Positions 4,674 through 27,500 of a DNA stretch of 29,682 nt are shown here, piece after piece. Origin of the DNA: a virus; the IMG/VR virus record IMGVR_UViG_3300021067_000016, positions 1-29,682 of that record; one strand, 5' to 3'. A program made the position numbers and the translations under genes. How positions within the stretch are numbered: position 1 is the stretch's first letter; each line of letters starts with the position of its first letter. The notes below the pieces were generated by a model that saw only the letters and a program-made list of their open reading frames with translations, searched no databases and had not been told where the DNA came from.

Positions 4674-4846
4674 GGTCGGGACCGCAGCCGTACGCGGCCT
4701 CACTCCCGGTTGCCGCGCGACATTGCGCCGTTCCAGGAGAATCCGATCGCAACACGGCCAAACGTCGGATTCGCGGGCTGGTCGGTCCCGGAGATCCTAT
4801 CGGCACGAGGACCTGGGCTGTCCGCCTGGCCGGCGATGATGCCGGC

Positions 4847-10048: not shown

Positions 10049-10161
10049 TGGACGTCGTGCTGATCCTCGCGGATTGGGCGATCTGGCGCGCGGAGTACGT
10101 CGCTCCGGTGCTGGCGATCGCCGGCGTCGGGCTGCTCGTCCTGGGGTGGCGCCGGTCGTGA
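10048..10161 (+). CDS. 37-aa membrane micro-protein
   Basis: A 37-codon frame linked to both neighbours: ATG 10048 overlaps the preceding TGA, and its own TGA (10159-10161) overlaps GTG 10158. The product has an N-terminal hydrophobic stretch (MDVVLILADWAIW), a short polar turn and a membrane helix (YVAPVLAIAGVGLLVLGW), ending in RRS. One full membrane span with a positive C-terminus is predicted. Function is unknown. Confidence 0.6.
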   Translation: MDVVLILADWAIWRAEYVAPVLAIAGVGLLVLGWRRS

Positions 10162-10622
10162 CGATTCGCACCGCGCACGTCGGCGACCTGGCGGTGCTCG
10201 TGCGCATGGGCCTCCGGTTCATTGCGACCTCGAGCTACCGCGGCACGATCCCGGCGAGCGCGGAGCAGCTCGGGACGCTCGTCGCCTGGCTGCTCGACCA
10301 GGGCGGGATTTTCGTGGCGGTCGACGACGAGGGCGACGAGCCGATCGGGATGCTCGCGGCCACCGTCATCGTGCATCCGATGTCGGGCGAGCTCGTGGCG
10401 AGTGAGGTTGCCTGGTGGATTGAGCCGGAGTTCCGGGGTGGCTCGGCGGGGCTGCGGCTCCTGGCCGCCGCGGAAGCCTGGGCGCGCGCGCAAGGCGCGA
10501 CGCGGTTCCAGATGATTGCGCCGGCGGGCTCGTCAGTCGGGGCGCTCTATCGGCGCCGCGGCTATGCGGAATTGGAGACGACGTGGCAGCGGCCACTCGA
10601 GGGCGAGTCGGACGCTGAGTAA
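10158..10622 (+). CDS. GNAT-family acetyltransferase
   Basis: A 154-residue protein with the GNAT order of elements. It has an N-terminal TIRTAHVGDLAVLVRMG, a central strand FVAVDDEGDEPIGMLAA, the acetyl-CoA loop region EVAWWIEPEFRGGSAGLRLL (the RGGSAG approximates the family R/Q-x-x-G-x-G/A loop) and the C-terminal GALYRRRGYAELETTWQR helix-strand. The enzyme should transfer an acetyl group from acetyl-CoA to an amine. The substrate cannot be read from sequence. GNAT genes are often found in phages close to terminase and portal genes. The GTG at 10158 overlaps the previous stop. Confidence 0.88.
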   Translation: MTIRTAHVGDLAVLVRMGLRFIATSSYRGTIPASAEQLGTLVAWLLDQGGIFVAVDDEGDEPIGMLAATVIVHPMSGELVASEVAWWIEPEFRGGSAGLRLLAAAEAWARAQGATRFQMIAPAGSSVGALYRRRGYAELETTWQRPLEGESDAE

Positions 10623-10707
10623 ATCGAGGGCGCGCGCTCGGGACCTGGTGGCGGATGGTTACACGCTGCATCGGGCCCGGGCGCCGCTCCCGACTAACGA
10701 GGACGCG

Positions 10708-10980
10708 ATGGGATTCGGAGCGCGGATATTCGGCGCGGGCGGAGGCGGCGGGGAACAGCGGGGTTCCCTGTTCGGCGACATGACCGCGGCGCTTCTGCGG
10801 AAGGCGCGCGCGCGGCAGGCCGAGGCGCGCGGTCCGCAGCCGCCGGCGAACGGCGCCGCGCAGAAGTCGGCGAACCTCGCCGCGGCCAAGGTCGCCGCGG
10901 ATCGCGCGCGTCGTGGGTCGGTCCTCGGGGGCGCGGCACCGGTCGGGAAGCCGGCCGGGCGTTCGATCCTCGGAGTGTAG
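10708..10980 (+). CDS. Gly/Ala-rich small protein, 90 aa
   Basis: A 90-residue protein that begins with a glycine-rich segment (GARIFGAGGGGGEQRGSLFG). A helical, Ala/Arg/Lys-rich body follows (ALLRKARARQAEARG, later KSANLAAAKVAADRARRGS), and it ends GRSILGV. ATG 10708 has GAGG at 10699-10702 upstream. An in-frame GTG at 10648 would add 20 residues. No family can be named. Its place before the portal suggests a minor head or assembly protein, which is inference. Confidence 0.6.
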   Translation: MGFGARIFGAGGGGGEQRGSLFGDMTAALLRKARARQAEARGPQPPANGAAQKSANLAAAKVAADRARRGSVLGGAAPVGKPAGRSILGV

Positions 10981-10982
10981 AT

Positions 10983-11162
10983 ATGGCCAAAGCTCGAGCG
11001 GCCGCGGTGGTCACGATTCGACGGGCGGGGCACATGACGTCCCTGGGCCGTCGCCGTGTCGCCTCCTGGCTGCGGCGCCTGGCCTCGCAGGTCGAGTCCG
11101 AGGGGCATCTCTATTCGGATCGGTTTCAAGCGCGCATCAGCCGCGCGGGGCGGGAGTCCTAG
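10983..11162 (+). CDS. Basic small protein, 59 aa
   Basis: A 59-residue, arginine-rich protein (MAKARAAAVVTIRRAGHMTS, then LGRRRVASWLRRLASQVESE) that fills the space between the preceding stop and the portal start two bases downstream. It has strong third-position G/C. It has no zinc ligands or membrane helix. Nucleic acid binding is plausible from charge only. Confidence 0.55.
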   Translation: MAKARAAAVVTIRRAGHMTSLGRRRVASWLRRLASQVESEGHLYSDRFQARISRAGRES

Positions 11163-11164
11163 TC

Positions 11165-12928
11165 GTGGCGATCGGCACCAGCAACGAATCGACGAAGGCG
11201 GCGAAGTCGCCGTCCCTGCTGAAGCGGGAGCGGCTCACGTCGCTCGCGGCCGCGCTCAAGACCGAGCGGTCCTCGTTCGACGCGCACTGGCGCGAGCTCG
11301 CGGAGTTCTGTCAGCCGCGGCGGACGCGGTTCCAGGTCACCGACCGGAACAAGGGCGACCGGCGCTCGCACAACATCATCAATTCGACGCCGCGGTTCGC
11401 GGTCCGCACGCTGCAGTCGGGGCTCCACGCCGGCCTGACGTCGCCGGCGCGGCCGTGGATGAAGCTGACGACGCCGGATCCGGATCTCGCCGAGTTCGGC
11501 GCGGTCAAGATCTGGCTGCACACCGTCACCCGGCGCCTCCTGGATCTGTTTCAGAAGTCGAACCTCTATAACGCGCTCCCGACGCTGTACGGCGACATGG
11601 GCGTGTTCGGCACCGGCGCGATGGGGGTGATGGACGACCAGCTGGAGGTCCTCCGTTGCTACAACTATCCGATCGGCTCCTATGCGCTCGGCCTGGACGC
11701 GCGCGGGATGCCGACGACGTGGGTGCGCGAGTACTCGCTCACCGTCCGCCAGATCGTCGAGCAGTTCGGCGGCGCCGATCGCCCGGGTGCGCCGATCGAT
11801 TGGTCGAACATCTCCGACTCGGTCAAGACGCTGTGGGACCGCGGCGACTATGAGACCGCGATCGAGGTGACCTGGATCGTGTCGCCGAATCAGGAGCACG
11901 ATCCGCGCAAGCTCGAGGCGCGCTATGCACTGCCGTGGTCGTCCTGCTATTTCGAAGCCGGCGACGATCTCGGCAAGTTCCTCCGCCAGTCGGGCTTCCA
12001 CGAATTTCCGATCCTGGTGCCGCGGTGGGACGTCCTCGCCGAGGACACCTACGGCACGGACTCGCCGGGGATGACCGCGCTCGGTGACATCAAAGGGCTC
12101 CAGGTCATGGAGCGCCGGAAGGCGCAGGCCGTCGACAAGGCGCTCAATCCGCCGCTCGTCGGGCCGGTGTCGCTCCGCAACCAGAAAGTCTCGCTGCTCC
12201 CGGGTGACCTCACGTACTCGAACGATACGAGCCAGGCGACGGGCCTCCGGCCGATCCACGAGGTGCGCCTCGAGGGCGTGAACGCGGTGTCGCAGCTGAT
12301 CATGGAAACGGAGAACCGCATCAATCGCGCGTTCTTCGTCGACCTGTTCCTCATGCTGGCGATGTCGGATCGCCGCGGCGCGCAGCCGGTGACCGCACGC
12401 GAGATCGAAGAGCGCCACGAGGAGAAGCTCCTGGCACTCGGGCCGGTCCTTGAGCGCACCAATGACGAACTCCTGGATCCGCTCGTCGACCGGGCGTTCG
12501 CCATGCTGCTCCGCGCCGGCGGTGTCCCGGAGCCGCCGCAGGAGCTCGCCGGCGTCGATCTGAAAATCGAATACATCTCGCTCATGGCGCAGGCGCAGAA
12601 GCTCGTCGCGGTCGGTGGCCACGATCGGTTCCTGCAGACGACGGTGTCGCTCGTCGAGGCGTTCCCGTCGGTGCGTCACAAGATCGACGCGTTCCAGGTG
12701 GTCGACGAATACGCGGAGATGCTCGGTGTGTCGCCGCGCATCGTGCGGACCGACGAACAGGCCGGCGCGGCGCTCGAGCAGGAGAGCCAGGCCGCAGCCG
12801 CTCAGCAGCAGGCCGAGCAAATGGCGACGGTGGCCAAGGCCGGCCAGGCGCTCGGGAACACGCCACTCGGCGACGGGACCGCGCTCGACGCGATCGCCGG
12901 CGCCGCGGCGGGTGTGCCGGTCCAGTGA
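11165..12928 (+). CDS. Portal (head-to-tail connector) protein, T7-like
   Basis: A 587-residue protein of the T7 gp8-type head-to-tail connector family. Supporting segments include RRSHNIINSTPRFAVRTLQS, LHAGLTSPARPWMKL, LYGDMGVFGTGAMGV, the region around ALNPPLVGPVSLRNQKV, and RINRAFFVDLFLMLAMSD followed by VTAREIEERHEEKLLALGPV. Twelve copies form the ring through which DNA enters the head and to which the tail attaches. The C-terminal ~60 residues are Ala/Gln-rich. GTG 11165 has GGGAG seven bases upstream. The length is slightly above T7 gp8 (~536). It overlaps the next gene by GTGA. Confidence 0.95.
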   Translation: MAIGTSNESTKAAKSPSLLKRERLTSLAAALKTERSSFDAHWRELAEFCQPRRTRFQVTDRNKGDRRSHNIINSTPRFAVRTLQSGLHAGLTSPARPWMKLTTPDPDLAEFGAVKIWLHTVTRRLLDLFQKSNLYNALPTLYGDMGVFGTGAMGVMDDQLEVLRCYNYPIGSYALGLDARGMPTTWVREYSLTVRQIVEQFGGADRPGAPIDWSNISDSVKTLWDRGDYETAIEVTWIVSPNQEHDPRKLEARYALPWSSCYFEAGDDLGKFLRQSGFHEFPILVPRWDVLAEDTYGTDSPGMTALGDIKGLQVMERRKAQAVDKALNPPLVGPVSLRNQKVSLLPGDLTYSNDTSQATGLRPIHEVRLEGVNAVSQLIMETENRINRAFFVDLFLMLAMSDRRGAQPVTAREIEERHEEKLLALGPVLERTNDELLDPLVDRAFAMLLRAGGVPEPPQELAGVDLKIEYISLMAQAQKLVAVGGHDRFLQTTVSLVEAFPSVRHKIDAFQVVDEYAEMLGVSPRIVRTDEQAGAALEQESQAAAAQQQAEQMATVAKAGQALGNTPLGDGTALDAIAGAAAGVPVQ

Positions 12929-13576: not shown

Positions 13577-13624
13577 GACAACGGTTCCCGAACCGGTCAG
13601 GCCACAACGGGGCGCAGATGCATC

Positions 13625-13676
13625 GGGCTCTGTCGACGTCGCGGACGCACTTCCGCGCGCTCGGCAGAGCCCTTTT
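13625..13676 (+). terminator. Terminator-like two-tier hairpin upstream of the scaffold gene
   Basis: An outer stem of eight perfect pairs (GGGCTCTG 13625-13632, CAGAGCCC 13665-13672) encloses an inner stem (CGCGGA 13640-13645, TCCGCG 13652-13657). TTTT follows at 13673-13676. This fits a rho-independent terminator, although the U-tract is short. It lies 34 bases before the scaffold start, so readthrough or processing must occur for scaffold expression unless a promoter is hidden nearby. Confidence 0.6.
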
Positions 13677-13710
13677 CGTTTGTGCCTCGGATTTTGGGGA
13701 GCGCGACGAG

Positions 13711-14418
13711 ATGAGCACGACCAAGACCGGCGACGGCGCACAGGGGACACCGAACGCGCTCGAAGCCACTGCTCTTGCGGGAATCGCCGGGACGCCGGCG
13801 GCGGACGCAGGAGATCCGGCAGCTGCAGCTGCTGCTGCGGCTGCGGCCGCGGCCGCGGAAGCGGCGGCCACACCCGACGGCGGGGCTCCCGCGGCCAAGG
13901 CCGGGGAAGAGACGCCAGCGGCCGCGGGGGACGCGAAGCCAGGCGAGGGCACACCGGACGGCGAGCAGCCGCAGGTTCCCGAGACCTATGAGCTCGCGCT
14001 CCCGGAAGGAGGACCGCTCGATGAATCTGACCTCGCGTCGATCGCCGACCTGGCGAAGGCGAAGAAGTGGACCAACGAGCAGGCGCAGGCCGCGCTGACC
14101 GAATACGCGCAAGCGCTGACCGCGCAGAGCGAGCGGTTCCTCACGGAGACGCAGTCACACGCGGAAGTTGGCGGAGCTCACCTGGAGGCGGCGCAGCAGA
14201 ACGCGCGTCGGGTCCTCGATCGATTTCTCCCGGGCGACTCGCCCGAGGGGCAGGCGCTCCGCCTTGGCATGAACAAGTCGGGATACGGCAATTGGGCGCC
14301 TCTGGTCGTCCTCCTGTCCCGCATCGGAAAAGCGATGAGCGAAGACGGACCGATCGCGGCGGACGCCAATCGGGGCGTGACTCCGAAGCGCGCGGCGGAC
14401 GTCCTCTACGGCTCATAG
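13711..14418 (+). CDS. Capsid assembly scaffolding protein
   Basis: A 235-residue acidic protein with the features of T7-like scaffolds. It has a low-complexity N-terminal half (poly-Ala run at residues ~35-48, many Gly/Pro/Glu), a helical centre (LTEYAQALTAQSERFLTETQ), and a C-terminal segment with HLEAAQQNARRVLDRF and NWAPLVVLLSRIGKAMSEDG. Scaffolds guide prohead assembly and leave before packaging. The position directly before the major capsid gene supports the call. ATG 13711 is chosen because GGGGAG lies upstream; an earlier in-frame ATG at 13618 would translate through the terminator-like hairpin. Confidence 0.8.
   Translation: MSTTKTGDGAQGTPNALEATALAGIAGTPAADAGDPAAAAAAAAAAAAAEAAATPDGGAPAAKAGEETPAAAGDAKPGEGTPDGEQPQVPETYELALPEGGPLDESDLASIADLAKAKKWTNEQAQAALTEYAQALTAQSERFLTETQSHAEVGGAHLEAAQQNARRVLDRFLPGDSPEGQALRLGMNKSGYGNWAPLVVLLSRIGKAMSEDGPIAADANRGVTPKRAADVLYGS
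13816..13863 (+). repeat. Alanine-codon tract in the scaffold gene
   Basis: A run of GCN codons encoding thirteen consecutive alanines, flanked by Asp-Pro and Glu. The codons alternate between GCA, GCT, GCG and GCC, so it is not a pure trinucleotide repeat, but it is the lowest-complexity stretch in the window. It lies in the disordered N-terminal half of the scaffold. Confidence 0.7.
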
Positions 14419-14437: not shown

Positions 14438-15448
14438 ATGGCGACTCTTTCTACCGGCGCGCTCACGCTCGCCGATTGGGCGAAGCGGCTCGAGCCGCAG
14501 GGCGGCAAGGTTTCGACGATCGTCGAGCTCCTGGGGCAGACGAACGAGATCCTGCTCGATATGCAGTTCATCGAAGGCAATCTCCCGACCGGTCATCGGA
14601 CGACCGTTCGTACGGGACTGCCGTCCGTGGCGTGGAGGCTCCTGAATCAGGGCGTCGCGCCGAGCAAGTCGACGACCGCGCAGATCGACGAGCAGGCCGG
14701 GATGCTCGAGGCGTGGTCCGAGGTCGACGTCGACCTGGCGAAGTTGAACGGGGACATCTCGGGTTTCCGGTTGTCGGAAGCGCGCGCGTTCCTCGAGGCG
14801 ATGAACCAGGAGATGGCCGGCACCGTGTTCTACGGGAACGGCGGCCTGGCGGCCGAGGAGTTCACCGGGCTCGCGCCGCGCTACAGCGCGATCAGCGGCG
14901 CCGCGAACGCCTCGAACGTCATCAGCGGCGGCGGCGCGGGTTCGGACAACACGTCGATCTATCTGATCGTGTGGGGCGAGAACACCGTGCACGGCATCTT
15001 CCCGAAGGGAAGCAAGGCCGGCCTGGAGCACCAGGATTTCGGTGAGGTCACGGTCGAAGTGACCGCGGGCGTCGCGGGCAACCGCATGCGCGCGTATCAG
15101 GAGCGGTTCCAGTGGAAGGCCGGGATCGCGCTCAAGGATTGGCGCTACGTCGTTCGCATCGCCAACATCGACGTGAGCAACCTCGTCGCCAACGCGGGCT
15201 CGCAGGCGGACCTGCTGACCCTGATGGCGAAGGCCACGCACCGCATCCCGGCGCTCGGGATGGGTCGCGCGGCGTTCTACGTGAACCGGACGGTCGCGCA
15301 GATGCTCGACATCCAGAACCGCACCGCGGTCAGCGGCGGCGGCGGGCTCACGTTCGAGAACGTCGACGGTCGTCGCGTGACGTCGTTCCGGGGGATCCCG
15401 GTCCGCACGTGCGACGCGATTCTCGAGACGGAGGCGGTGGTCGCGTAG
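14438..15448 (+). CDS. Major capsid protein (HK97 fold, BPP-1/Bbp17-like)
   Basis: A 336-residue protein placed between scaffold and cement genes. It resembles the major capsid proteins of BPP-1-like podoviruses: LTLADWAKRLEPQGG at the start, EILLDMQFIEGNLPTGHRTT, then VDVDLAKLNGDISGFRLSEA, and a C-terminal region with GRAAFYVNRTVAQMLDIQNR and FRGIPVRTCDAILETE. It forms the icosahedral shell. No protease domain is attached and no separate head protease is seen. A good ribosome binding site (GGAG 14426-14429, spacing 8) precedes ATG 14438. A stem-loop follows the gene. Confidence 0.93.
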   Translation: MATLSTGALTLADWAKRLEPQGGKVSTIVELLGQTNEILLDMQFIEGNLPTGHRTTVRTGLPSVAWRLLNQGVAPSKSTTAQIDEQAGMLEAWSEVDVDLAKLNGDISGFRLSEARAFLEAMNQEMAGTVFYGNGGLAAEEFTGLAPRYSAISGAANASNVISGGGAGSDNTSIYLIVWGENTVHGIFPKGSKAGLEHQDFGEVTVEVTAGVAGNRMRAYQERFQWKAGIALKDWRYVVRIANIDVSNLVANAGSQADLLTLMAKATHRIPALGMGRAAFYVNRTVAQMLDIQNRTAVSGGGGLTFENVDGRRVTSFRGIPVRTCDAILETEAVVA

Positions 15449-15546: not shown

Positions 15547-15990
15547 ATGTTCGTAGATGCATTGATGCTGCTGGCCGACGCGCAGGCGTTCACGGCCACG
15601 GCCTATTCCACCAACACGATCGACCTCGGCGCAGCGACGCGCGAGATCGGCGTCGGCGAGGCGCTCGAGCTCGTCGTGACGGTCGACGTCGCGGGCGATC
15701 GGACGACCGGCGACGAAACGTACGAAGTGCAGATCGTTCAGTCGGCGAACGCCAACCTGAGCTCGCACGACGTTCTCGTGTCGCGCGCGATTCCTGTCGC
15801 CGACCTGGCGGCCGGCAAGGTGATCCGGGTGCCGCTCCCGGCTGGCTCCGTGACGAAGCGCTACATCGGCGCGCGTCTGGTGCTCGCCGGCACGACGCCG
15901 ACGATCACGGTCACGGCGTTCATTCAGCCGGCGGCGATGGCGTCGCTCGCGGTGCCGCAGTCGTACGCAAAGGGCTACACGGTCAGCTAG
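15547..15990 (+). CDS. Bbp16-like capsid cement protein
   Basis: A 147-residue beta-rich protein that matches the pattern of the Bbp16 cement family: NTIDLGAATREIGVGEALEL, VVTVDVAGDRTTGDETYEVQ, ADLAAGKVIRVPLPAGSVTK, RYIGARLVLAGTTPTITVTA. In BPP-1 the cement protein binds the outside of the capsid shell and stabilises it. The position directly after the capsid gene supports the call. GGGAG lies ten bases before ATG 15547. A terminator-like hairpin follows the gene. Confidence 0.85.
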   Translation: MFVDALMLLADAQAFTATAYSTNTIDLGAATREIGVGEALELVVTVDVAGDRTTGDETYEVQIVQSANANLSSHDVLVSRAIPVADLAAGKVIRVPLPAGSVTKRYIGARLVLAGTTPTITVTAFIQPAAMASLAVPQSYAKGYTVS

Positions 15991-16413: not shown

Positions 16414-19400
16414 ATGGCTACGAAGTTCATTTCGTTCTACATCGTTCTGAAGGACGAGTCCCTTTACAACGATTGCACGACCCGCGATTGGTCCAACGGG
16501 AACGATCCCGGTCGGCCGGCCGGGGAGATCCACACGTCGCCATACGGAGCCTGCAGCGAGCTCGGCCTCGAGTATCGGCACACCGACGCGGCGGGCGCGG
16601 CGGTCGCGCCGTTCCCGGGCCCGAGCGCGAACGGGTACGTCTGGACGCCGGTCAACGCGTCGCCGCTCGCGCGGGCGCTCTATCACTTCCAGGATGACGA
16701 CGGGGACCAGGTGTACTGGACCGCGACGTTCGTCCTCGAGCCGGGCGCGACGTCGGCGCAGATTCCGGATCCGGATTTCATCCCGACGCCGGGGAATCCG
16801 ACGCCGCCGCTTGTCCTGCCGCGGCCGCGGATCCCGATGGCGCCGATGGCGCAGCGGCGCTACGTCGACGGCGCCGAGATGCCGGACGGCGCGCACGGCG
16901 GCGCGGGTGGTGAGGGCGGCTCCGGTTCGGCCGTGCCGCTCTACGTGTCGCGCGACGCCTCGCGGCATCTGGGCGGCCTCGGGTGGGCGTTCCGCAACGC
17001 CGGGAATCAGACGCGCACGCACAACCCGGTGGAGCTCACCGGCGAGACGGCGAACACGGTGAAGAAGCACTGGGACCGGTTCTACTTCCGCGTGCGGACG
17101 TTCCCGTCGGTGAGCGATCGCCTGTACTACGCGAGCTCGGCGAAGGGCGCCAACCAGGGACTCTCGCTCGAGGTGACCCCCGACGGGAAGCTCGCGGTCT
17201 ATGACGGCACGTCGACCGCGAAGAGCCTCCTGGCGGTGCTCGACCTGCAGCTGGAGCTCGATGTCTGGTACCGCGTCGACCTGCTCCTGCAGGCGCTCGA
17301 CTATCCACAGGCCGCGCTCGACGCGAGCGAGTCCGCGACCGATGGCAGCGGTGGCGCGAATGCCGCCTTTACGGGCACGTCGATTCGCGTGTTCGGGCCA
17401 GGGGAAGTGTTCGCCGGGTGGGTCGGGCATCCGCTCGGGCTGCAGGCGGCCTCGTTCGCGCCGACCTCCTACATCTCACAGCTGGCGATCGGCGGCCTCA
17501 CGGCGGGCAGCGGGTTCTGCTTCGACGTGGACGATTGGATTGGCTCACAGTGGCCGGCGGCGCCGGCGAGCATCCCGGTCAACGCGAACGGGCTCCGTGC
17601 GTCGTGGGGCGAGCTCGAGCCGTGGTCGGGCCTCGATTGGATCAACGGCTCGCGCGTCCTGCCCCTCCGCGGCACCGGGTTCGGTGCCGGCAACCAGATC
17701 ACCGGCGATTTCCGCGTGCTCCTGCAGAATCCGCAGCAGGCGCCGATCATTCAGGCGCTCGCGTCGAGCGTGGCGAGCACGGTCGTCGAGCTCGACACGG
17801 ACGCGGACGTGGCGATCGACGCGGCGCCGGGGACGTACGGGCTCGCCGCGATGGTCGTCGGTACCAACTGCAGCAACGTCTCGACCGCGGACGGCCAGGT
17901 GGGCTACACCGTCGGTGGCGTCACGGTCGCGCAGACCAAATCGTTCGGCACGTTGGGCTGGCGGCACGCGCTCTATAGCGCGAACACGACGTATCCCTCG
18001 GCGGTGGCGCCGGTCCGGATCCGAGCCATCAAACCGGCGTCGGCCGACGCGTTCTCGATCCGCGCGCTCGGCGCGGTCGCCGAGGTGGTCGGCAAGTTCA
18101 GTGCGGTGGACGAGCGGATCGCCTGGAAGGATCAGGCGCTCGATGCGGACGACGGCATTCCGTCCGCGGAGCTCACCGCGCGGTTGATGGCGACGCGGCC
18201 GCTCGACCTCCCGCACAACCATCCCTATCCCGAGTCGGTGTGGGCGAATCCGGGTGGTGTGCCGCCGATGTCGCCGGTGAAGGTCTTTGGCGGCACGTAT
18301 GCCGGCAACGGCACCGGCCAGGATCTGACGTTCGACGTGCCGATCCATTGGCTGTGGGTGCGGCCGCTCACCGGGGATCTCGGCGGCGGACATTGGTGGT
18401 CCGGCCTCGTCGCGGCGCACCGCCTCCACGCGCTGGCGCCGACGTCGGCCGCGATGGTCCAGGCACGGCAGGACCCGACGGTCGACGGCGGCACGGCCAC
18501 GGAGCCGAGCGGCTCGTATCAGCTGCGGATCGCCGGCAGCGAGGCGCAGAGCAACGCCTCGGGGGTGACCTACCAGTACATTGCGTTCTCTGACCCGGGG
18601 CAGCGGTTCCTGCTGAACGGCGCCGGCCGTGGCGATTCGAGCCTGGCGTCGGTGCTCCGCGCACTCGTCGACACCGGGTTCACGCCGGAGGCGGCGTTCT
18701 TCTTCGTCGAGTCGATCGGTACGACGTCGACCGCAACGCACGCGTTCAAGGGCCCGGGCCATGCGGCGGCGGCCGCGAGCGTCCTCGGTGCGGCGGAAAC
18801 GGCGGATTATGCGACCTTCGGCGCCGGCACGCTGACCACCGCGACGCCGCTGCATGGCGCGAGCAACGGCTACGGGTTCGCGCTCTGGCGGCGCGCGGAT
18901 GGGCACAACGATCCCGGGCAGCCGGCGGTCCTCGCGCTCGGCTCCTACGTCGGCGACGGCACCGCGTCGCGGTCGGTCGGGGTCGCGCCGTCGAGCGGGA
19001 AGCGGCCACTGTTTCTGCTCGTCGTGGGCTCGAACGGCACGACGCTGTTCCGCGACCCAAGCCACACCGGGACGACGAGCTCGACGCACCTGGGGGCCAA
19101 CAACGCCTCGACGGGAATCACCGGCGGGGGCGTCGATTCGTTCTCCGTCGGCTCCACGCTGAATACCAGCGGTGTCACGTACAACTGGTTCCTCCTGCCG
19201 GGCAGCGCGACGGCGGGGAACGGTGGGTGGTCGATCAACGGGGAGTATGAGCCGGTCGATCCGGCGCTCCCGCTCGGGAACCAATGGCCGCAGCCGGAGC
19301 CGGGCGACGAGGACACGTTCGACGAGGGCGAGGTCGGCCCGGCGGATCCCGGTGACCTGACGACCGATATCGCGGCGGACTGCGTCGCGGCGTCCACGCG

Positions 19401-20013
19401 CCTGGTCAACATCGCGCTGTCGTTCCTCGGCATCTCGCAGTCGATCGCGCCGAGCGCGCTCGGGACCGAGCAATCGCGCGAGGCCGCCTCCGCGCGGCTT
19501 CACTTCAAGACGGACGCGGACGAGGTCCTGCGCGCGTTCCCCTGGGCGATGGCCACGGCGTACGCGTCGCCGACGCTCGTCGAGGGCGACATCGCCGATC
19601 CGGCGAACGGCGATTGGACCTACGTCTACCGCGCGCCGGCGGACTGCGTGTTCGTGCGGCGCATCGTCCGCCCGGGCTTCAAGCGCAAATTCGATCCGGA
19701 TCCGCCGGCGTTCCGCGTGAGCTCGGACGACGACGGGGATCTCATCTTCACCGACGAGGAGGATCCGGAGATCGAATACACGCGCCGGGTGCCCTGTCCC
19801 GCAGGCTCGCGCGACGCGATCTTCCGGAAGGCGCTCGCGTATCGGCATGCGTCCTCGCTCGCGCAGGCGCTCGGCCGCGACGAGAAGATCGCCGATCGCA
19901 TGCTGCGGAACTATCTCGGTCAGGTCCGCCTGGCGGAGGTCAAGGCAGCGCAGGAGCAACAGCACCAGGATCCGGATCCCGGCGGCGACGCTGAGTGGAT
20001 TCGGGCGCGGTGA
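16414..20013 (+). CDS. Adhesin-like region fused to tail tubular protein A (T7 gp11-like)
   Basis: A single 1199-residue frame with two distinct parts. Residues 1-~980 are beta-rich and adhesin-like: an N-terminal module, a Gly-rich linker near 155-172, a LamG/concanavalin-like module about 173-380 (ending DVDDWIGSQWP), a further beta module at ~395-560, and two related modules at ~618-730 and ~838-930 that share G-x-Y-x-G-x-G-T and SGVTY. Residues ~981-1199 match the tail tubular protein A or gatekeeper family: LVNIALSFLGISQSIAPSAL, LRAFPWAMATAYASPTLVE, DWTYVYRAPADCVFVRRIV and a terminal AEWIRAR. In T7 this protein is separate, about 196 residues, and forms the ring below the portal. There is no ATG, GTG or TTG in frame between about 19140 and 19354, so a separate gp11-like product cannot easily be started there. 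Confidence 0.85.
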   Translation: MATKFISFYIVLKDESLYNDCTTRDWSNGNDPGRPAGEIHTSPYGACSELGLEYRHTDAAGAAVAPFPGPSANGYVWTPVNASPLARALYHFQDDDGDQVYWTATFVLEPGATSAQIPDPDFIPTPGNPTPPLVLPRPRIPMAPMAQRRYVDGAEMPDGAHGGAGGEGGSGSAVPLYVSRDASRHLGGLGWAFRNAGNQTRTHNPVELTGETANTVKKHWDRFYFRVRTFPSVSDRLYYASSAKGANQGLSLEVTPDGKLAVYDGTSTAKSLLAVLDLQLELDVWYRVDLLLQALDYPQAALDASESATDGSGGANAAFTGTSIRVFGPGEVFAGWVGHPLGLQAASFAPTSYISQLAIGGLTAGSGFCFDVDDWIGSQWPAAPASIPVNANGLRASWGELEPWSGLDWINGSRVLPLRGTGFGAGNQITGDFRVLLQNPQQAPIIQALASSVASTVVELDTDADVAIDAAPGTYGLAAMVVGTNCSNVSTADGQVGYTVGGVTVAQTKSFGTLGWRHALYSANTTYPSAVAPVRIRAIKPASADAFSIRALGAVAEVVGKFSAVDERIAWKDQALDADDGIPSAELTARLMATRPLDLPHNHPYPESVWANPGGVPPMSPVKVFGGTYAGNGTGQDLTFDVPIHWLWVRPLTGDLGGGHWWSGLVAAHRLHALAPTSAAMVQARQDPTVDGGTATEPSGSYQLRIAGSEAQSNASGVTYQYIAFSDPGQRFLLNGAGRGDSSLASVLRALVDTGFTPEAAFFFVESIGTTSTATHAFKGPGHAAAAASVLGAAETADYATFGAGTLTTATPLHGASNGYGFALWRRADGHNDPGQPAVLALGSYVGDGTASRSVGVAPSSGKRPLFLLVVGSNGTTLFRDPSHTGTTSSTHLGANNASTGITGGGVDSFSVGSTLNTSGVTYNWFLLPGSATAGNGGWSINGEYEPVDPALPLGNQWPQPEPGDEDTFDEGEVGPADPGDLTTDIAADCVAASTRLVNIALSFLGISQSIAPSALGTEQSREAASARLHFKTDADEVLRAFPWAMATAYASPTLVEGDIADPANGDWTYVYRAPADCVFVRRIVRPGFKRKFDPDPPAFRVSSDDDGDLIFTDEEDPEIEYTRRVPCPAGSRDAIFRKALAYRHASSLAQALGRDEKIADRMLRNYLGQVRLAEVKAAQEQQHQDPDPGGDAEWIRAR
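18265..19203 (+). repeat. Two related beta modules within the adhesin-like region
   Basis: Module 1 (around 18265-18610) and module 2 (around 18925-19203) share a pattern at protein level: G-[ST]-Y-x-G-[ND]-G-T at the start and N-x-SGVTY-x-[YW]-x-[AF]-x at the end (GTYAGNGTG... with NASGVTYQYIAF; GSYVGDGTA... with NTSGVTYNWFLL). They look like diverged tandem duplicates separated by about 110 residues. DNA identity is low, so the duplication is old. Confidence 0.6.
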
Positions 20014-20021
20014 GGTGACCG

Positions 20022-22211
20022 ATGGCACAGTCCATAGTGCAGCGGTCGTTCGCCGCGGGCGAGCTCGCGCCGAGCCTGGCCGCGCGCGCGGATCTCCGGC
20101 AGTACCTCGCGGGGCTCCGGACCTGTCGTAACTTCATCGTCCAGCGGCAGGGCGGCGTCGGCAATCGGACGGGCACGCAGTACGTCGCCGTCGCCAAGAC
20201 GACGGGCCGCACGTTCCTGCGGCCGTTCATCTTCCCCGCGCTCGATGCGAGTTTTGCGGTCGAGATCGCCGACGGCTATTTCCGTTTCCACAGAAACGGG
20301 CAGCCGGTCACCGTGTCCGGCGTGGTCGCCTGGTCAGCCGCGACGGCGTACGTCGTCGGCGACCTGGTCGCGCACGGCGGGGTGAACTATTACGCGGTCG
20401 CGGCGAGCACCAACCAGGAGCCGCCGGACGCGGACTACTGGCATCCGCTCACCGGGAGCATCTACGAGATCCCGACACCCTACGAGATCGGCGATTTCCT
20501 GCCGCCGGCGCCGGCGGGCTGGTCGCAGGCCGGGACGGTTGTGACGATCACGCACCTGGACCATCCGCCGCGCGAGCTCCGCTACGAGAGCGCGACGCGG
20601 TGGGTGCTCTCGTCCGTCGTGACGGGCCCGTCGATCGCGCCGCCGGTGAACCTGAACGGCACGCCGACCACGGTCGGCACGCGCACGTTCCGCTACGTGG
20701 TCACTGCGGTCATGGCGGAGACCTACGAGGAATCGAATCCGTCCGAGGTCCTCGAGGTGACGAGCGCGGAGCTCGGTACGCCAGATGCGCCGGTCGTCCT
20801 CACCTGGGACCACGTCGATGGCGCGGTCGAGTACCGGGTGTACGGCGACCCGTACGAGAACGGCACCTTTGGTTACCTCGGGACCGCGACCGAGCTCCTG
20901 GGCTTCTACGACGTCGGCACCGATCCGGACTTTGGCGACACGCCTCCGGTGCCGCGCACGCTGTTCGCGGCCGAGAACCTTTATCCGGCGGTGTCGGTCG
21001 TCCACCAGCAGCGGCGAATCTTCGCAGGCACGCACACCGATCGGGAGGACGTTTTCGCCTCGCGCGTCGGGCACCGCTCGAATTTCGGCATCCGCTCGCC
21101 GCTCCAAGACGACGACGCGGTGTCCTGGAACCTCGCGTCCAACCTGGTCCAGCCGGTGCGGCACCTGGTCGGGCTGAAGCAGTTGGTCGTCCTCACCGAC
21201 CAGGGCGAGTGGATCGTCCGCGGCGGCGACGACGGGGTGATCACGCCGACCGCGATCAACCTCGATCAGCATGGCTACGTGGGCGCCTCCGAAGCGGCGC
21301 CGGTCATCATCGGCAATGCGATCGTGTTCGTGCAGGCGCGCGGGACCGTCCTCCGCGAGCTCCGGTTCGACCAGCAGGTCGAAGGGCTCAGCGGCCGAGA
21401 CCTCACGCTCTGGTCAGCGCATCTGTTCAAACGCTACGGGATCACGCAGATCGCGTACGCGCAGGTGCCAGACTCGATCGTCTGGTGCGTGCGGTCCGAC
21501 GGTTCGCTGCTCGGGCTGACCTACATCCCAGATGCGGACGAGTGGGGCTGGCACCGGCACGACACCGACGGCTCGTTCGAGCAGGTCGTCGTGCTGCCCG
21601 AGGGGCAGGAGGACGCGGTGTACGTCGTCGTGCGCCGCGAGCTCGGCGGCGTCGAGCGGCGCTACATCGAGCGGTTCGCCACGCGGGCCTATGCGTCGCT
21701 CGCCGACGCGGTGTTCCTCGACGTGAGCAAAACCTATGACGGCGTGGCCACGACGACGGTCAGCGGCCTCACGCACCTGGCGGGCGCGTCGGTACGCGTC
21801 CTGGCCGACGGCGTGGCGCTCGCAGGCACGTTTCGGGTATCGAACGCCGGCGTCGTGTCGCTCCCGGTGTCCGCGTCGACCATCCAGGTCGGGCTGCCGA
21901 TCACCGCGCAGATCGAAACGTTGGACCTCGACGTCGCGGGCTCGTCGGTCCGCGATAAGCGAAAGCTCGTGAAGGCGATCGCACTCCTGCTCGAGGACTC
22001 CGCGCGCGGGTTCCTCGTGGGACCGAATCTCTCGAACCTCTTACCGCATCGGGGCGAATCCTGGGAGGCGACCGGCGGGCTCGTCTCCGGCCAGGTCGAG
22101 ATGACGCTCACGGCGGGTTTCACCAATCACGGCCGCGTCGTGATCCAGCACACGGATCCGACGCCGCTCACGATTCTCGGCTTAATGCCTCTCGTCGAGG
22201 TGGGTGGGTAA
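20022..22211 (+). CDS. Tail tubular protein B (nozzle) with carbohydrate-binding and FN3-like insertions
   Basis: A 729-residue T7 gp12-like nozzle protein. The N-terminus (SIVQRSFAAGELAPSLAARA, then LRTCRNFIVQRQGGVGNRTG) and the core (YPAVSVVHQQRRIFAGTHTD, WIVRGGDDGVITPTAINLDQ, VGASEAAPVIIGNAIVFVQA) are typical of the family. Two insertions are visible. Residues ~104-145 resemble a chitin/cellulose-binding CBM5/12 module (AWSAATAYVVGDLVAHGGVN, then PDADYWHPL). Residues ~205-300 resemble a fibronectin type III domain. The nozzle closes the tail tip and contacts the cell surface, so sugar-binding insertions there make sense. GAGGTG precedes ATG 20022. Confidence 0.9.
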   Translation: MAQSIVQRSFAAGELAPSLAARADLRQYLAGLRTCRNFIVQRQGGVGNRTGTQYVAVAKTTGRTFLRPFIFPALDASFAVEIADGYFRFHRNGQPVTVSGVVAWSAATAYVVGDLVAHGGVNYYAVAASTNQEPPDADYWHPLTGSIYEIPTPYEIGDFLPPAPAGWSQAGTVVTITHLDHPPRELRYESATRWVLSSVVTGPSIAPPVNLNGTPTTVGTRTFRYVVTAVMAETYEESNPSEVLEVTSAELGTPDAPVVLTWDHVDGAVEYRVYGDPYENGTFGYLGTATELLGFYDVGTDPDFGDTPPVPRTLFAAENLYPAVSVVHQQRRIFAGTHTDREDVFASRVGHRSNFGIRSPLQDDDAVSWNLASNLVQPVRHLVGLKQLVVLTDQGEWIVRGGDDGVITPTAINLDQHGYVGASEAAPVIIGNAIVFVQARGTVLRELRFDQQVEGLSGRDLTLWSAHLFKRYGITQIAYAQVPDSIVWCVRSDGSLLGLTYIPDADEWGWHRHDTDGSFEQVVVLPEGQEDAVYVVVRRELGGVERRYIERFATRAYASLADAVFLDVSKTYDGVATTTVSGLTHLAGASVRVLADGVALAGTFRVSNAGVVSLPVSASTIQVGLPITAQIETLDLDVAGSSVRDKRKLVKAIALLLEDSARGFLVGPNLSNLLPHRGESWEATGGLVSGQVEMTLTAGFTNHGRVVIQHTDPTPLTILGLMPLVEVGG

Positions 22212-22736
22212 ATGGCGGCGCTCACAACGATGACGCTGATCGGCCTCGGCATGGCCGTCGGTGGTCAGGTTATCAACGCGATCGGCAACAAGAAAGCGGG
22301 CGACGCGGCGAAGGCGGCCGGCGAATCCGCCGCGCAGCAGCAGGAGTTCAACGCCCAGGTGGCGGAGCTCCAGGCGGCCGACGCGCTCGCGCGAGGTCAG
22401 GACGAGGAGTCGCGGTTCCGGTCCTCCGTGCGGGGCCTCATCGGCTCACAGCGCGCCGGGTTCGCGGGCCAGGGGGTTGAGGTCGGCGCCGGCTCGGCGG
22501 CCGACGTCCAGGCCGACACGGCGTTCCTGGCGGAGCAGGACGTCCAGAACATCCGCGCCAACGCGGCGCGCGAAGCCTGGGGCTTCCAGGTCGAAGCGCA
22601 GGACCGCCGAATGGCAGCGGACGTGGCGCGCAAAGGCGGCCAGGCGACCGCGTCCGCGGCGAAGTGGAACACGGCGAGCTCCGTCCTCGGCGCGGGGAGC
22701 TCGCTCGTCATGCAGCGCTATGGGTGGTCACGGTAA
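22212..22736 (+). CDS. Internal virion protein, T7 gp14-like (ejection protein)
   Basis: A 174-residue helical protein. It starts with a hydrophobic, glycine-containing segment (TLIGLGMAVGGQVINAIGNK). An Ala/Gln-rich body follows, with RFRSSVRGLIGSQRAGFAGQ, GVEVGAGSAADVQADTAFLA and a block around NIRANAAREAWGF. This layout is common to small core proteins of T7-like and BPP-1-like podoviruses, thought to be ejected first and to form a pore in the outer membrane. It begins directly after the nozzle stop (TAA then ATG) and its own stop overlaps the next ATG, so the three ejection genes are coupled. Confidence 0.8.
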   Translation: MAALTTMTLIGLGMAVGGQVINAIGNKKAGDAAKAAGESAAQQQEFNAQVAELQAADALARGQDEESRFRSSVRGLIGSQRAGFAGQGVEVGAGSAADVQADTAFLAEQDVQNIRANAAREAWGFQVEAQDRRMAADVARKGGQATASAAKWNTASSVLGAGSSLVMQRYGWSR

Positions 22737-24565
22737 TGCCGCGCGTCGAAAAGTTCGGGGAGCGGAAGGTCGGCCTGGCGGCGCTCCCGGGGGCGCGCAA
22801 GCAGGCCCATGAAACGTTCGAATCCCAAGGCGGCCAGGTGGGCCTGGCGCAGGCGGGCGTCGGGCGCACGGTCGGCGCGATCGGCGGGCAGGTCCTCGCC
22901 GACATCACGCGCGTTGAGCGCGAGCGCGCCGACCAGGTGGCGAACCTCACCACGCTCCGGCAGCTCAACGAGCTCGATCAGCAGGTGCTGCACTCCGAGG
23001 ACAAGGGTGTTCTCAATAAGCGGGGCCTCGATGCGATGGCCGCGCGGGACGAGGCGCTCGCCTCCTACGACCAGCAGCTCGGGATGATTGCGTCGAACCT
23101 CAAGACCGACGCGCAGCGGCTGTTCTTCGAGCAGCAGAAGGTCCAGCGGCGCGCGTCGCTCGAGCGGCAGATCGGCGATCACGGCCTCCGCGAGATGCGC
23201 GCGCACGAAGAGCGCGAGTTCAAAGGCTTTCTGGAGTCGTCGCAGCAGCGCGCGGTCGTCAACGCGCTCGACCCGTCGATTGTGAGCTCGGTCCTCACCG
23301 AGCAGGATCTGCGTGTCCGCGAGTATGCAGAGCGGAATCGCATCGGGCCCGAAGCGACCGAGGCGCTCCTGCAGGGCGCACGGTCGAACGTCCACGTCGG
23401 CGTGATCCGGCAGATGCTCGCCCAGGATCAGGATCGCTCGGCCTCGATCTACCTTGAGGAAGTGAAAAAGCAGATCGATCCGGACCTGCTCCCGGAGCTC
23501 CAGGAGCGCGTCGATCGCGCGTCGACCGAAGGCGCAGGCCTCCGCGCGTCCGAGGAGATCTGGACCAAGCACGCGCCGGTCGGCGACAACGATCCGATCA
23601 ACCTCGATCGCATGGAGGCGGACGCGCGCACGCGGTTCGCCGACGACCCGGCGGCGCTGAAGTCGACGATTCAGTTCCTCCGGGAACGGAAGGCCGGGAT
23701 CGACGCGAGCCGCGCGGACCGCAAGGAGGCGGTCGCCGGCGCGCTGTGGGGCGCCGTCGCGCAGGGGCGCGCGCTCGCCGACGTGCGGCGTATGCCGGAG
23801 TACCAGCTGGCGCCGGGGCAGCTGCAGGCGCAGATCTCCGAGCACATCGTCCGCGAGGCGGAGCACCGGGCGGACCGTGCGTACTCGCTCAGCCAGCGGG
23901 GGAAGGAGTCGGCGTCGCGCGCGGAGAACGACAAGGAGCGCGCGGGATGGGCGGCGTATTGGGAGTACTCGGAGCCGTCGCGCCTGGCGTCGATGACCGA
24001 GAACCAGATCCTCGCGCTCACGCCGACGCTCGGCGTCGACCACGTGAATCGGCTCATGGCCGCGAAGCGCTCGGACCCGAAGGCGGCGACCGTCGATGCG
24101 GAGGCGTTCAAGGCGCGCGCGCACGCGGCGGGGCTGCCGGCCTACAAGCCGAGTCCCTCCGAAGAAGAGAAGGCGCTCATGGGAGAGTTGCAGAACGCCG
24201 TCGAGTCGGCGATCGCGGCCGAGGAGGTCGGCGGCCGTCGACTGTCGCGGACGCAGAAGGACGAGCTCACACAGCGGATCATCGATCAGAAGGTCCTGCT
24301 GAATCAGTGGGGTCGCGACCCTGAGGCGATCGCCGCGATCGTCCGTCCAGAGGACCGCGCGAGCGCGTACGTGCCGATCGCGCGCATTCCGCAGCGGTCG
24401 CTCGGGGAATGGGTCAATGTGCTCCGCTCGCTCGAGCCGCGCGCGCAGGGGCTGTCGCGCGAGCAGATCCTCGCCACGTACGGTGACCGAATCGAGCGGG
24501 CGCACGCGGCCGCGATGATGCGCCTCGGCGCGGAGGAGGAGCAGCGGCGCCTCCTGGGGAACTGA
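22736..24565 (+). CDS. Internal virion protein, T7 gp15-like (ejection tube candidate)
   Basis: A 609-residue, almost entirely helical protein with many charged residues and no catalytic motif. Examples are LADITRVERERADQVANLTT, LRQLNELDQQVLHSEDKG, LQERVDRASTEGAGLRASEE and DKERAGWAAYWEYSEPSRLA. The order small core protein, mid-size helical core protein, giant protein corresponds to gp14-gp15-gp16 of T7, where gp15 builds the periplasmic tube. The assignment rests on order and composition more than on sequence identity. ATG 22736 overlaps the previous TAA by one base. The next gene starts two bases after its stop. Confidence 0.65.
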   Translation: MPRVEKFGERKVGLAALPGARKQAHETFESQGGQVGLAQAGVGRTVGAIGGQVLADITRVERERADQVANLTTLRQLNELDQQVLHSEDKGVLNKRGLDAMAARDEALASYDQQLGMIASNLKTDAQRLFFEQQKVQRRASLERQIGDHGLREMRAHEEREFKGFLESSQQRAVVNALDPSIVSSVLTEQDLRVREYAERNRIGPEATEALLQGARSNVHVGVIRQMLAQDQDRSASIYLEEVKKQIDPDLLPELQERVDRASTEGAGLRASEEIWTKHAPVGDNDPINLDRMEADARTRFADDPAALKSTIQFLRERKAGIDASRADRKEAVAGALWGAVAQGRALADVRRMPEYQLAPGQLQAQISEHIVREAEHRADRAYSLSQRGKESASRAENDKERAGWAAYWEYSEPSRLASMTENQILALTPTLGVDHVNRLMAAKRSDPKAATVDAEAFKARAHAAGLPAYKPSPSEEEKALMGELQNAVESAIAAEEVGGRRLSRTQKDELTQRIIDQKVLLNQWGRDPEAIAAIVRPEDRASAYVPIARIPQRSLGEWVNVLRSLEPRAQGLSREQILATYGDRIERAHAAAMMRLGAEEEQRRLLGN

Positions 24566-24567
24566 TC

Positions 24568-27500
24568 GTGGGTGACCGGTCCTCGCTCATTTCGGATCCG
24601 TTCGCCACGACGCCTGGGGAGCAGCCGTTCGAGCTCGGCCAGCCCACGACCAAGCGCGAGTCGCTCATCGGCGAGGTGTCGACGGAAGACGATCGCCTCC
24701 AGAGCGGCCTGCAGCTGGCGCAGCAGAAGTCGCCGGAGCTCGCCGCGCGCATCTTCGCTCTCCAACGGAAGACCGGATTTCCCGCCGAGCTCATCGAGCG
24801 CAATCTCGACGACCTCGAGCGCCAGGCGGCGGTCGCCGATTTCGACGCGGAGGCGTTCCGTGCACGGAGTCCGCTGCTCGCGCAGTGGCTCGCCTCCGAC
24901 GCGTATCACGCGGCGCTCGCCAAGGATGATCTCGACGCGCTCGGCAAGGTCGAACACGCGCTCACGTTCGGCGGGTCGATCCTCCGTGGCGTCGACAGCC
25001 TGCAGGGGATGCTCTACGGATCCACCGAGGCCGTCGGGGAGGCGGTGGGGAGCTCGAGCCTGACCGCGTTCGGGCGCGAGGGCCGTGAGCGGAATCGGAG
25101 CGAGGCGGACGCCTACGGGCAGGCGACGTCGGTGTTTGCGATCCGCGGGCCATGGGACCTGGTGCAGGTCGTCAAGGAGACGGTGGGCGAGCAGCTGCCG
25201 ATCATGGGGCCGCCGCTCGCCGGCGCCGGCCTGGGCTTCGCGGCCGCCGGACCGATCGGCGCCGCGATCGGCGCGTTCCTGCCGTCGCTGGCGATGGGCA
25301 TCGGCGAGGTCCAGGGGTCGATCAAAGACATCGATCCGCACGCGCAGGTCCCGGCGGCCGCGTTCATCGGCGGCTCGGCGATCGCCGCGTTCGACTCGGT
25401 GCTCCCCGGCAAGATCGGCGGTCGCCTGGTGGCCACGTTCGGCCGCGAGACCGCGGAGCAGATTGCGCGGCGCGCGCTCCTGGCGCCGGTCCATCCGAAG
25501 TACCTCCGGCAGGGCGCCGCGTCGATGGCGACCGAGGGCCTCACCGAATCGCTCCAGGAAGCGATCGGCGCCGTCGCGGCCGCGGCCGGGACGGACACCG
25601 CAGTGCCGGACGACCTGTGGCGGCAGATGGTCGAAGCCGGCGCGCGCGGCGCGATCGTCGGCGGCGTCATCGCCGGCGGGGAAGCCGGCGTCACGCGTCG
25701 GCGGGTGAACGCGCAGATCGTCGCAGCCAAGCAGAACCAGGTCGTGTTCGATGCGCTCGCCGAGGGCGTCGCGGAGTCCAAGCTCTTTCAGCGGCTGCCC
25801 GCGAAGGCGCAGGCGTTCGTCGAGGCGGTCACGAAGAACGGGCCGCTCGAGACCGTGTTCGCGCCGCTCGACACCTGGACCACGTACTGGCAATCGAAGG
25901 GCATTGACCCGGCCATCGTGGCGGCCGAAATCACCGGCCGTCCCGACGCGCTCGAGCAGGCGCGCACGACCGGCGAGGACCTGGCGATCCCGACCGGTGT
26001 CTATGCGGCGAAGCTGGCGGCCTCCGAGCACCACGCGTTCTTCGCGCAGGAGCTCCGCCTGGGTGGGCCGGAACGGCTCAACGCTCGGGAAGCCGCGGCG
26101 CTCGAGCAGGAGCTCGACGCGGCGGTCGCGGCGCCGGCGGCCGAGGCGACCGACCCGATCGCCGCCGCGGTCGCCGACCAGGCCACGGCCGTCGGCACGT
26201 CGCCAACGATGGCGACCGCCTGGGGCCGTCTCCACGCGGCCGTGTTCGGCACGATGGGGGCCCGGGCTGGCGTCGACCCGGTGGCGCGGTTCGCCGGCTA
26301 TGGGGTGGAGATATCCCGGGAGGGCTTCGAAGCCACAGGAACGCGTTCGAACGCGTTCCAGGGGGAATCTGGCCGGCCGGCGGACCTGCCGCCGTCGGTC
26401 GCCAGCCCCAAGGAATCCGGCCAGCAGCGAGCGACCCGTCGGCGGGCGCACCGGGCAGCGCTTGAATCCTTCGTCATCACGGACGCGCAGGCGATCGACC
26501 CAACGGTCGATGTCGCCGAGCTCCGGCGCGAGCTCGCGTTCCGCCTGGACATGCACGAGGAGGGGCGTCAGGAGGCGCGGGCCTCGGGGAAGGGCCAGGA
26601 CCTCCTACGCGCGATCGCCGAGCGCGGCGGCCTCTGGATGGCCAAGGATCAGGCCGAGCGCGGCGAATTCGCGCGGTGGCTCGAGCACCGGGACGGTCGC
26701 GTCACGCGCGGCGGCGAGGTGAAATTCGCGCCGGGCCGCGCGACGTGGAACGGGATCGAGGGCGTGTTCCGCGAAGGGGGGCGGACGCTCGACGACATGG
26801 TGCGGTCGCTCGTCCAGGATCCGCGGTTCGCATATCTCGACGGCGGTGAGAACGCGGACACACCGGACAACCTCCGGGGCGACCTCAATCTGCTGATCGA
26901 CGCGATCGAGGACGCGCTCGTCGCGGATCCCGATCCGGAGGACGCGTTCCCGGGGACCGCGGAGCTCCATGAGCTCGGCATCGCACTGGGCTCGCGGTGG
27001 TGGTCGTTCGCCGGCGAGAGCACCGTCGCGGCGCCGGAACGCTTCGGACCGCTCCAGCAGCCGCTCGGCCCGACGAACGCGAACGGCGAAGCGGCGTACT
27101 TCATTGGCGTCCAGGAAGGTATCGACGACATTCCGTCCATGCCACTCTTTAACGTCGTCGGCGGGCCGCACCACGGCACGACGGTAGGTGTCGAAGAGCT
27201 CGAGGCGTGGGGCATCGCGGTCCCGCCGGTACCCGAGGCGTCCGACTCGATCATTCCAGAAGGCGTGGAGCTCGACGACTCGTTCGACTTCGCGCAAGAG
27301 GACGAGCAGTTCAACCAGGCGCCGGCGGATCCCCTCGGGCTGCAGCGCGTGCTGGTCGACCCGGTGGGCGACGTCATCAGCATCAGCTATCCGAAGCCGC
27401 GGGTGGTCGAGGACGTCGACGTGCAGTTGTTCCCGTCAGAGGGGCAGGTCGCCTACCTGGCCGCGGGCCTCGAGGACAAGCTGGCGACGATTCCGACGTC

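Follow-up and report, generated by a model that had tools for sequence, protein, structure and literature searches.

Organization of the locus

Here we describe a gene in a 29,682-base stretch of viral DNA (IMG/VR record IMGVR_UViG_3300021067_000016; hereafter, the window) in which a head-to-tail adaptor domain of the type known as gp11 or tail tubular protein A (TTPA) lies at the C-terminus of a chain of 1199 residues. On the evidence set out below, the gene probably encodes an adaptor that carries a covalently attached host-adhesion arm. Along the window, genes for the portal, a protease, the major capsid protein GP7, and a Bbp16-type cement protein, as well as a small open reading frame (ORF), are followed by the fused gene and then by nozzle-type and gp14-like genes (Table 1), so that the fused gene, lying between the capsid/cement genes and the nozzle gene, occupies the gp11 slot of phage epsilon15. 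The gene order in epsilon15 is the same, but its gp11 is a free adaptor of 201 residues, followed by gp12, and a free adaptor also fills this slot in the epsilon15-like and related named phages among the records opened. Since relatives run to 40–50 kb, the genome represented by the window is probably incomplete.

The fused gene forms a single uninterrupted frame from an ATG through 1199 codons. Residues 994–1199 match the tail protein family phrog_394 (profile positions 4–188 of 190, E 8.5e-26), and a local adaptor hidden Markov model places the domain at residues 991/992–1199. The full chain was modelled with AlphaFold from a 40-row alignment (mean predicted local distance difference test score, pLDDT, 76.9), and its adaptor domain resembles the Carin-1 connector (8ck1_E; Z 18.4, root-mean-square deviation 2.9 over 190 residues) and a protein of the LME-1 portal–tail complex (9efk; Z 13.3). 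The family match and the connector fold both agree with the first-pass annotation of this DNA, made from the letters alone, which had taken the last ~210 residues for a gp11-like tail tube protein. The family trait of a separate protein of ~200 residues does not describe this chain, and we therefore regard the 1199-residue product as an adaptor domain inside a larger protein rather than as an ordinary phrog_394 member.

The joint itself is devoid of canonical start codons. As had been noted earlier, no in-frame ATG, GTG, or TTG occurs for more than 200 bases before the boundary; the last one ahead of the adaptor is a GTG at codon 871 (position 19,024), ~360 bases 5′, and the next after the joint is an ATG at codon 1046, within the adaptor domain. 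Third-position GC content lies between 0.83 and 0.94 in every 100-codon block, including across the joint.

Domain architecture of the arm

In the model, residues 146–381 adopt a jelly roll of the concanavalin/LamG type, with Z values of up to 15.0 (184 residues), and the Pfam family Laminin_G_3 is found in three of 40 homologues, though not in the window protein; CBM_5_12 is found in four of the 40. The predicted structure, together with the Laminin_G_3 matches, bears out the lectin-like region proposed previously, and the segment is a predicted carbohydrate-binding domain of the lectin type. The window protein has no Pfam match at E 0.05, including to the T7-type N-terminal tail-binding domain or the parallel beta-helix, and no fibre family was found by Pfam among the 40 homologues. 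Neurotoxin binding domains, Cry toxins, and sialidases that the lectin part matched in Foldseek were taken to have a beta-sandwich or concanavalin-like fold in common with it rather than kinship; Pfam gives the lectin part no toxin match.

The head of the arm (residues 606–955), when modelled alone from 37 rows, reached a pLDDT of 86.9 and a predicted template modelling score of 0.90. Profile–profile comparison revealed homology between modules 1 and 3 (93%, E 3e-7) and between modules 2 and 3 (78%, E 1.8e-5), while modules 1 and 2 gave no direct match and the reversed controls were likewise blank; the repeated beta modules seen in the first reading of the sequence are thus corroborated. By structure comparison (VIA), the head aligns with single-chain C1q heads (5hzf, Z 6.0 over 228 residues; 5hkj, Z 5.5), with an entry containing the Cbln1 C1q trimer (5kca, Z 5.1), and with a single-chain adiponectin trimer (4dou, Z 4.3). 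The structures that aligned over more than 200 residues of the head were C1q and adiponectin entries, whereas tailspike and baseplate proteins covered one module each. As three homologous modules lie in one chain, a homotrimer would be unnecessary, and the head may be a single-chain pseudo-trimer of three jelly rolls; the C1q-type matches have Z values too low for certainty, and we offer the pseudo-trimer as a supported suggestion. Matches to viral protein models include stand-alone phage proteins of 306–365 residues, a length that fits the head, and a sequence search of the PDB returned a partial, weak match to a binary-toxin-A-like protein (E 0.009), plus a membrane protein.

Table 1. Features of the fused gene and its surroundings, with positions in the window; aa, amino acid residues of the fused protein
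Feature	Position	Strand	Basis
Portal / head-tail connecting protein	10913..12928	+	PF12236, E 9.1e-150
Head protease, candidate for any cleavage	13618..14418	+	phrog_458, E 2.4e-22
Major capsid protein GP7	14438..15448	+	PF20911, E 1.6e-134
Bbp16-type cement protein	15547..15990	+	PF21190, E 4e-22
Fused gene, adhesin-like arm and head-to-tail adaptor, 1199 aa	16414..20013	+	Open frame; 62 homologous fused ORFs
Concanavalin/LamG-like lectin fold (predicted), aa 146-381	16849..17556	+	AlphaFold model m5afc4465d6e6; VIA Z up to 15.0; Laminin_G_3 in 3/40 homologues
Further beta domain, aa 405-563, no fold assignment of its own	17626..18102	+	Secondary structure of the model
Jelly-roll module 1 of head, aa 617-730	18262..18603	+	Homologous to module 3; model mbbd3bbdff5e7
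Jelly-roll module 2 of head, aa 728-835	18595..18918	+	Homologous to module 3
Jelly-roll module 3 of head, aa 836-937	18919..19224	+	Profile-profile comparison; the three together resemble single-chain C1q heads
Flexible Pro/Asp/Glu-rich linker, aa 946-989	19249..19380	+	pLDDT <50 at aa 956-979; P+D+E fraction 0.46
Cys990	19381..19383	+	37/37 single fused adaptor domains and 22/22 first copies, absent from standalone adaptors (alignment)
gp11/TTPA-type adaptor domain, aa 992-1199	19387..20010	+	phrog_394, E 8.5e-26; Carin-1 connector 8ck1_E, Z 18.4
Cys1128, proposed partner of Cys990	19795..19797	+	Covaries with Cys990 in later adaptor copies
Nozzle-type tail protein, directly 3′ of the fused gene	20022..22211	+	phrog_376, E 1.5e-167
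Stand-alone arm ORFs in other contigs (L144, L147, L149, L152, L154, L156, L158, L160-L165, L169, L092)			

Conservation of the fusion among uncultured viruses

In IMG/VR, 80 related loci were recovered with the capsid protein as query; six fused proteins used as queries added 78 loci, some of them on the same contigs. Among these we identified 62 distinct ORFs with the same arm in frame ahead of an adaptor domain, comprising 39 with a single adaptor (including one, L017, whose single copy bears an insert), 22 with two, and one with three; a few of the 62 are interrupted by contig ends or frame breaks. The single-adaptor proteins are ~32–40% identical to the window protein. The first-pass annotation had raised the question of whether the same fusion occurs in related genomes, and the joining it described is genuine and conserved rather than a product of chance, with an upstream part that is indeed adhesin-like. 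When 22 fused contigs of 40–50 kb were searched whole, all adaptor matches lay inside one fused frame. The fused chain is therefore the sole adaptor of the phrog_394 family in these relatives and must provide their neck ring. In one contig (G027), the match to the last C-terminal adaptor piece extended through one TGA, though the ORF list puts this piece in frame.

No related locus was confirmed with the full-length window protein as query, no relative of the arm was present in 50,697 named phage records, and a genome-contig scan with an alignment of fused proteins found no such arm. The capsid scan recovered 47 relatives in bacterial assemblies, among which a long fused adaptor was present only in L205.

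An artefact of sequencing or assembly, with a missed stop or an indel joining two genes, might be suspected from the frame breaks in related contigs (L124, L167, L141, and L071). The same in-frame joint in 62 distinct ORFs, many of them only 32–40% identical to the window protein, and the continuous codon-position GC content leave this explanation a negligible chance, and an indel was dropped as a candidate because of the 62 homologous fusions. In L124, L167, L141, L097, and L071/L110, the frame is broken within the arm of a gene that is otherwise fused; since L124 has a near-identical, unbroken relative (L142), these breaks are likely assembly or sequencing errors, or possibly real decay.

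The homologues also bear on whether internal initiation near the joint might add free adaptor to the ring, such that only some of the twelve subunits would be armed. Some relatives, such as L091, L117, and L132, do have an ATG or GTG near the start of the domain, and the window ORF has a near-cognate CTG at codon 982. Start codons around the joint are scattered, however, and none is conserved across homologues; the window and ~15 relatives have no start from 40 codons before to eight codons after the adaptor start, and initiation at codon 1046, which with codon 871 is the nearest canonical start in the window, would remove the first conserved helix. A mixed ring of this kind is therefore very improbable, and internal initiation as the main route was discarded for want of a conserved start.

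A cysteine pair and the integrity of the linker

Cys990 lies nine residues before the first conserved Asn of the adaptor. This residue and Cys1128 are both present in all 37 single fused adaptor domains and in 22 of the 23 first copies of multi-adaptor chains, but in none of 37 standalone adaptors. Among the later copies (n = 24), both columns are filled in six and both are empty in 18, four of which have a cysteine near the second position; the probability of such a pattern under random pairing, with relatedness ignored, is 1/134,596. The simplest reading of this covariation is that a Cys990–Cys1128 disulfide would staple the incoming arm to the adaptor body. The association of the cysteines with the arm is partly confounded by phylogeny, and the fusions of L205 and of the Vibrio phage VP2 (see below) are without the pair.

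The linker ahead of Cys990 is usually rich in Pro, Asp, and Glu and spans 42–75 residues in most fused members. Its length and disorder, the presence of a protease gene in the window, and the occurrence of the arm as a stand-alone protein in unrelated phages are all compatible with a polyprotein, in which the linker would be cut, for example by the head protease (phrog_458), to free an adaptor and an adhesin that may assemble elsewhere. Against such processing, the linkers differ in length and sequence and share no evident cut motif in the alignment, the fusion has been kept in 62 ORFs within a phage group where free adaptors are common, the two cysteines point to a mechanical tie right after the linker, and the fusion protein of phage phiVC8 is reported uncut. 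We thus consider cleavage unlikely.

Tandem adaptor copies

In the adaptor tree, the first copies of multi-adaptor chains form one clade (Shimodaira–Hasegawa-like approximate likelihood ratio test, SH-aLRT, 98), and the later copies, including the middle copy of the triple chain, form another (99); the single fused domains fall into two groups, and nearly all standalone adaptors lie outside. Both this tree and the capsid tree were quick reconstructions with SH-aLRT support only. The topology indicates one old duplication, after which both adaptor positions would have evolved separately. The capsid tree intermixes single- and double-adaptor forms. Taken alone, it would imply that the second adaptor was gained and lost many times, a reading set aside given the single duplication in the adaptor tree; the discrepancy is read as probable whole-gene exchange between phages. 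The sole triple chain (L166) is a partial ORF (2–2491) with three adaptor domains at residues 165–829. In L146, the first adaptor copy is interrupted midway by an insert of ~85 residues (residues 1130–1220) that weakly resembles E1_FCCH beta domains, and inserts are also present in L148, L151, and L168.

The dodecameric adaptor of phage SU10 offers six fibre sites, with alternate subunits that differ structurally (PMC9509320). By analogy, two specialised adaptor domains and one arm per chain would fix an SU10-like alternation and give six arms. We tentatively put forward, as a reading with a serious though not a leading chance of being right, that a neck built of adaptor–arm chains resolves two symmetry mismatches at the level of the gene: six tandem-adaptor chains would close into a pseudo-12-fold ring whose arms, one for each pair of adaptors, match the hexameric nozzle, and the triplicated single-chain head would replace a homotrimeric fibre tip. 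Single-adaptor members such as the window phage would then bear twelve arms, and a triple-adaptor chain would yield four.

Varied arms and putative sugar-binding modules at the neck

In ~14 contigs, the arm region is a stand-alone ORF of 904–1239 residues without an adaptor domain (Table 1). Whole-contig searches of 14 of these found no match to the adaptor family of the window and one weak match to its portal family, and two that were examined encode a different terminase (phrog_979) and a different major head protein (phrog_14242); by these genes, the stand-alone arm appears to belong to a different, poorly known phage group. Conversely, in some relatives with a free adaptor, the slot ahead of it holds a fibre- or spike-like gene, whose product is a right-handed beta-helix protein in L011, contains BppL_N in L028, and is weakly LamG-like in L029. 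Two further kinds of arm have joined the adaptor independently of the window type: PASTA domains precede it in L037, and a SASA-type carbohydrate esterase (PF03629, E 1.6e-9) precedes it (residues 810–991) in a Henriciella sp. metagenome contig (L205:6200-9229), where the SASA/SGNH-type fusion may place an enzyme on the neck ring.

Modules resembling CBM_5_12 lie within the adaptor domain of L017, L112, L143, L135, and the free adaptor of L011, and near the adaptor start in L155. The nozzle protein of the window contains one at residues 103–130 (positions 20,328–20,411; E 1.3e-5 for the isolated segment, just under the Pfam cut-off). The CBM_5_12-like matches are each under the Pfam cut-off (E 1e-5 to 0.05), and all name one family. 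Taken with the varied arms, these modules in adaptors and nozzle mark the neck as a frequent landing place for sugar-binding modules.

Alternatively, the arm may sit on the ring as an auxiliary decoration, providing weak, general attachment to glycans or surfaces, while a specific receptor is bound by another, unrecognised spike. Lectin, CBM-like, and immunoglobulin (Ig)-like modules on phage virions are often auxiliary (PMC6669499; PMC13320782), and the window is partial: the ORFs scanned 3′ of the endolysin-like virion protein (25,085–29,682) are without a family match, and a spike gene separate from the fused gene could hide there. On the other side, the arm sits in the slot of the spike- and fibre-like genes of some relatives, its tripled head resembles receptor-binding tips, and no other spike was recognised among the window ORFs scanned. 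An auxiliary role is accordingly a possibility to be kept in mind, but not the one we favour.

Elsewhere in the window, the listed ORFs for the gp14-like internal virion protein (22,212–22,736) and the endolysin-like virion protein (22,664–24,565) overlap by ~70 bases, and an HNH endonuclease (4517–5374) and a ParB-like domain fused with a DNA methyltransferase (6306–7580) are encoded 5′ of the terminase.

Proposed function

In the reading we prefer, an adaptor with a covalent adhesion arm, the C-terminal 208 residues would assemble as a ring under the portal, of twelve subunits, as homology with T7, SU10, and Peru-2 suggests, and the flexible linker would tether the N-terminal ~945 residues as an arm. 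This arm, made up of the lectin-type domain and a three-module head that may mimic a trimeric fibre tip within a single chain, would grip surface glycans or receptors, replacing the separate fibres or spikes encoded 5′ of the free adaptor in some relatives. We infer full-length incorporation of the chain, the ring count, outward display, glycan or receptor binding, and disulfide formation from homology, models, and covariation. We likewise infer the number of arms, namely twelve per neck in the window phage and six in double-adaptor relatives; cleavage at the linker is improbable, and nothing found points to it. The adhesin arms on the neck ring that the earlier annotation envisaged are thus supported in outline, by the absence of a separate adaptor gene in the 22 relatives and by the full-size fusion reported in phiVC8 virions.

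Several points weigh on the other side. At Z 6.0, the resemblance of the head model to single-chain C1q is weak; the phiVC8 protein, cited as precedent, has its domains in the opposite order and an arm of another kind; and a phage-encoded protease could in principle cut the linker. The clade is also known from genes alone, and, the window being partial, a fibre gene of its own might lie elsewhere in the genome.

Adaptors are commonly regarded as small structural rings to which fibres dock. In a large uncultured clade, the ring subunit and the adhesion arm would instead be one molecule, with two ring subunits per chain in some members, and tandem adaptors and a one-chain arm would offer podovirus tails a genetic escape from their 12-to-6 and 6-to-3 mismatches in symmetry. 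If such genes are labelled only “tail tubular protein A” or only “lectin domain protein”, likely receptor-binding proteins go unnoticed in environmental phages, and even in Vibrio phages that have been cultured. Beyond what the first reading of the window had offered, the most novel element is the combination of the tandem adaptor copies of relatives, the triplicated single-chain head, and the arm-linked cysteine pair.

Comparison with known systems

With gp11 of T7 and epsilon15, the C-terminus of the window protein shares family, connector fold, and gene position before the nozzle; the T7/epsilon15-type members opened are free proteins of ~200 residues, whereas the window chain has 1199 residues and some relatives have two or three adaptor copies. 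In a literature search covering few subscription journals, no adaptor was described as the carrier of a receptor-binding arm, nor were tandem adaptors; a paper on the structure of epsilon15 makes no mention of its adaptor. The gp11 of phiYeO3-12 is a TTPA reported to have enzymatic activity, hence with a proposed second function (PMC7060351); its authors treat it as an ordinary T7-type TTPA, unlike the window fusion.

In SU10 and T7, an adhesion device sits on the adaptor ring, as proposed for the window phage, but the fibres there are separate docked trimers, while the window arm is within the adaptor chain. Tail and neck structural proteins of 936 phages have gained carbohydrate-binding modules that decorate the virion (PMC6669499); in these lactococcal siphophages, the carriers are the neck passage structure, the major tail protein, and an evolved Dit, that is, other carriers in another phage type. 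Ig-like vertex proteins are found on the virion of Peru-2 (PMC13320782).

The closest precedent came from a structure search that led to Q6RCF4 of Vibrio phage VP2. This 741-residue protein (L234:9329-11554) begins with an adaptor (residues 1–188, 102.9 bits), continues with Ig-like domains, and ends in a Gly-rich C-terminus; its gene lies directly before an epsilon15-like tail gene, and its record likens the protein to the Hoc outer capsid protein. The homologue in phiVC8, ORF14 (8930–11155; L235:3001-5226), is named “tail tubular protein” in RefSeq, and its 74.1-kDa product is reported to be one of the four main virion proteins, identified by SDS-PAGE and mass spectrometry (PMC4802629). Because this protein is reported at full size in virions, a fusion of adaptor and adhesin appears to persist uncut there. 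The reverse-order fusion of VP2 and phiVC8 has gone unremarked as such. Thus, the Enhodamvirus phages (VP2, VP5, and phiVC8) combine an adaptor and adhesin-type domains in one chain of an epsilon15-like phage, as in the window, but with a single adaptor that comes first and an arm unrelated to that of the window.

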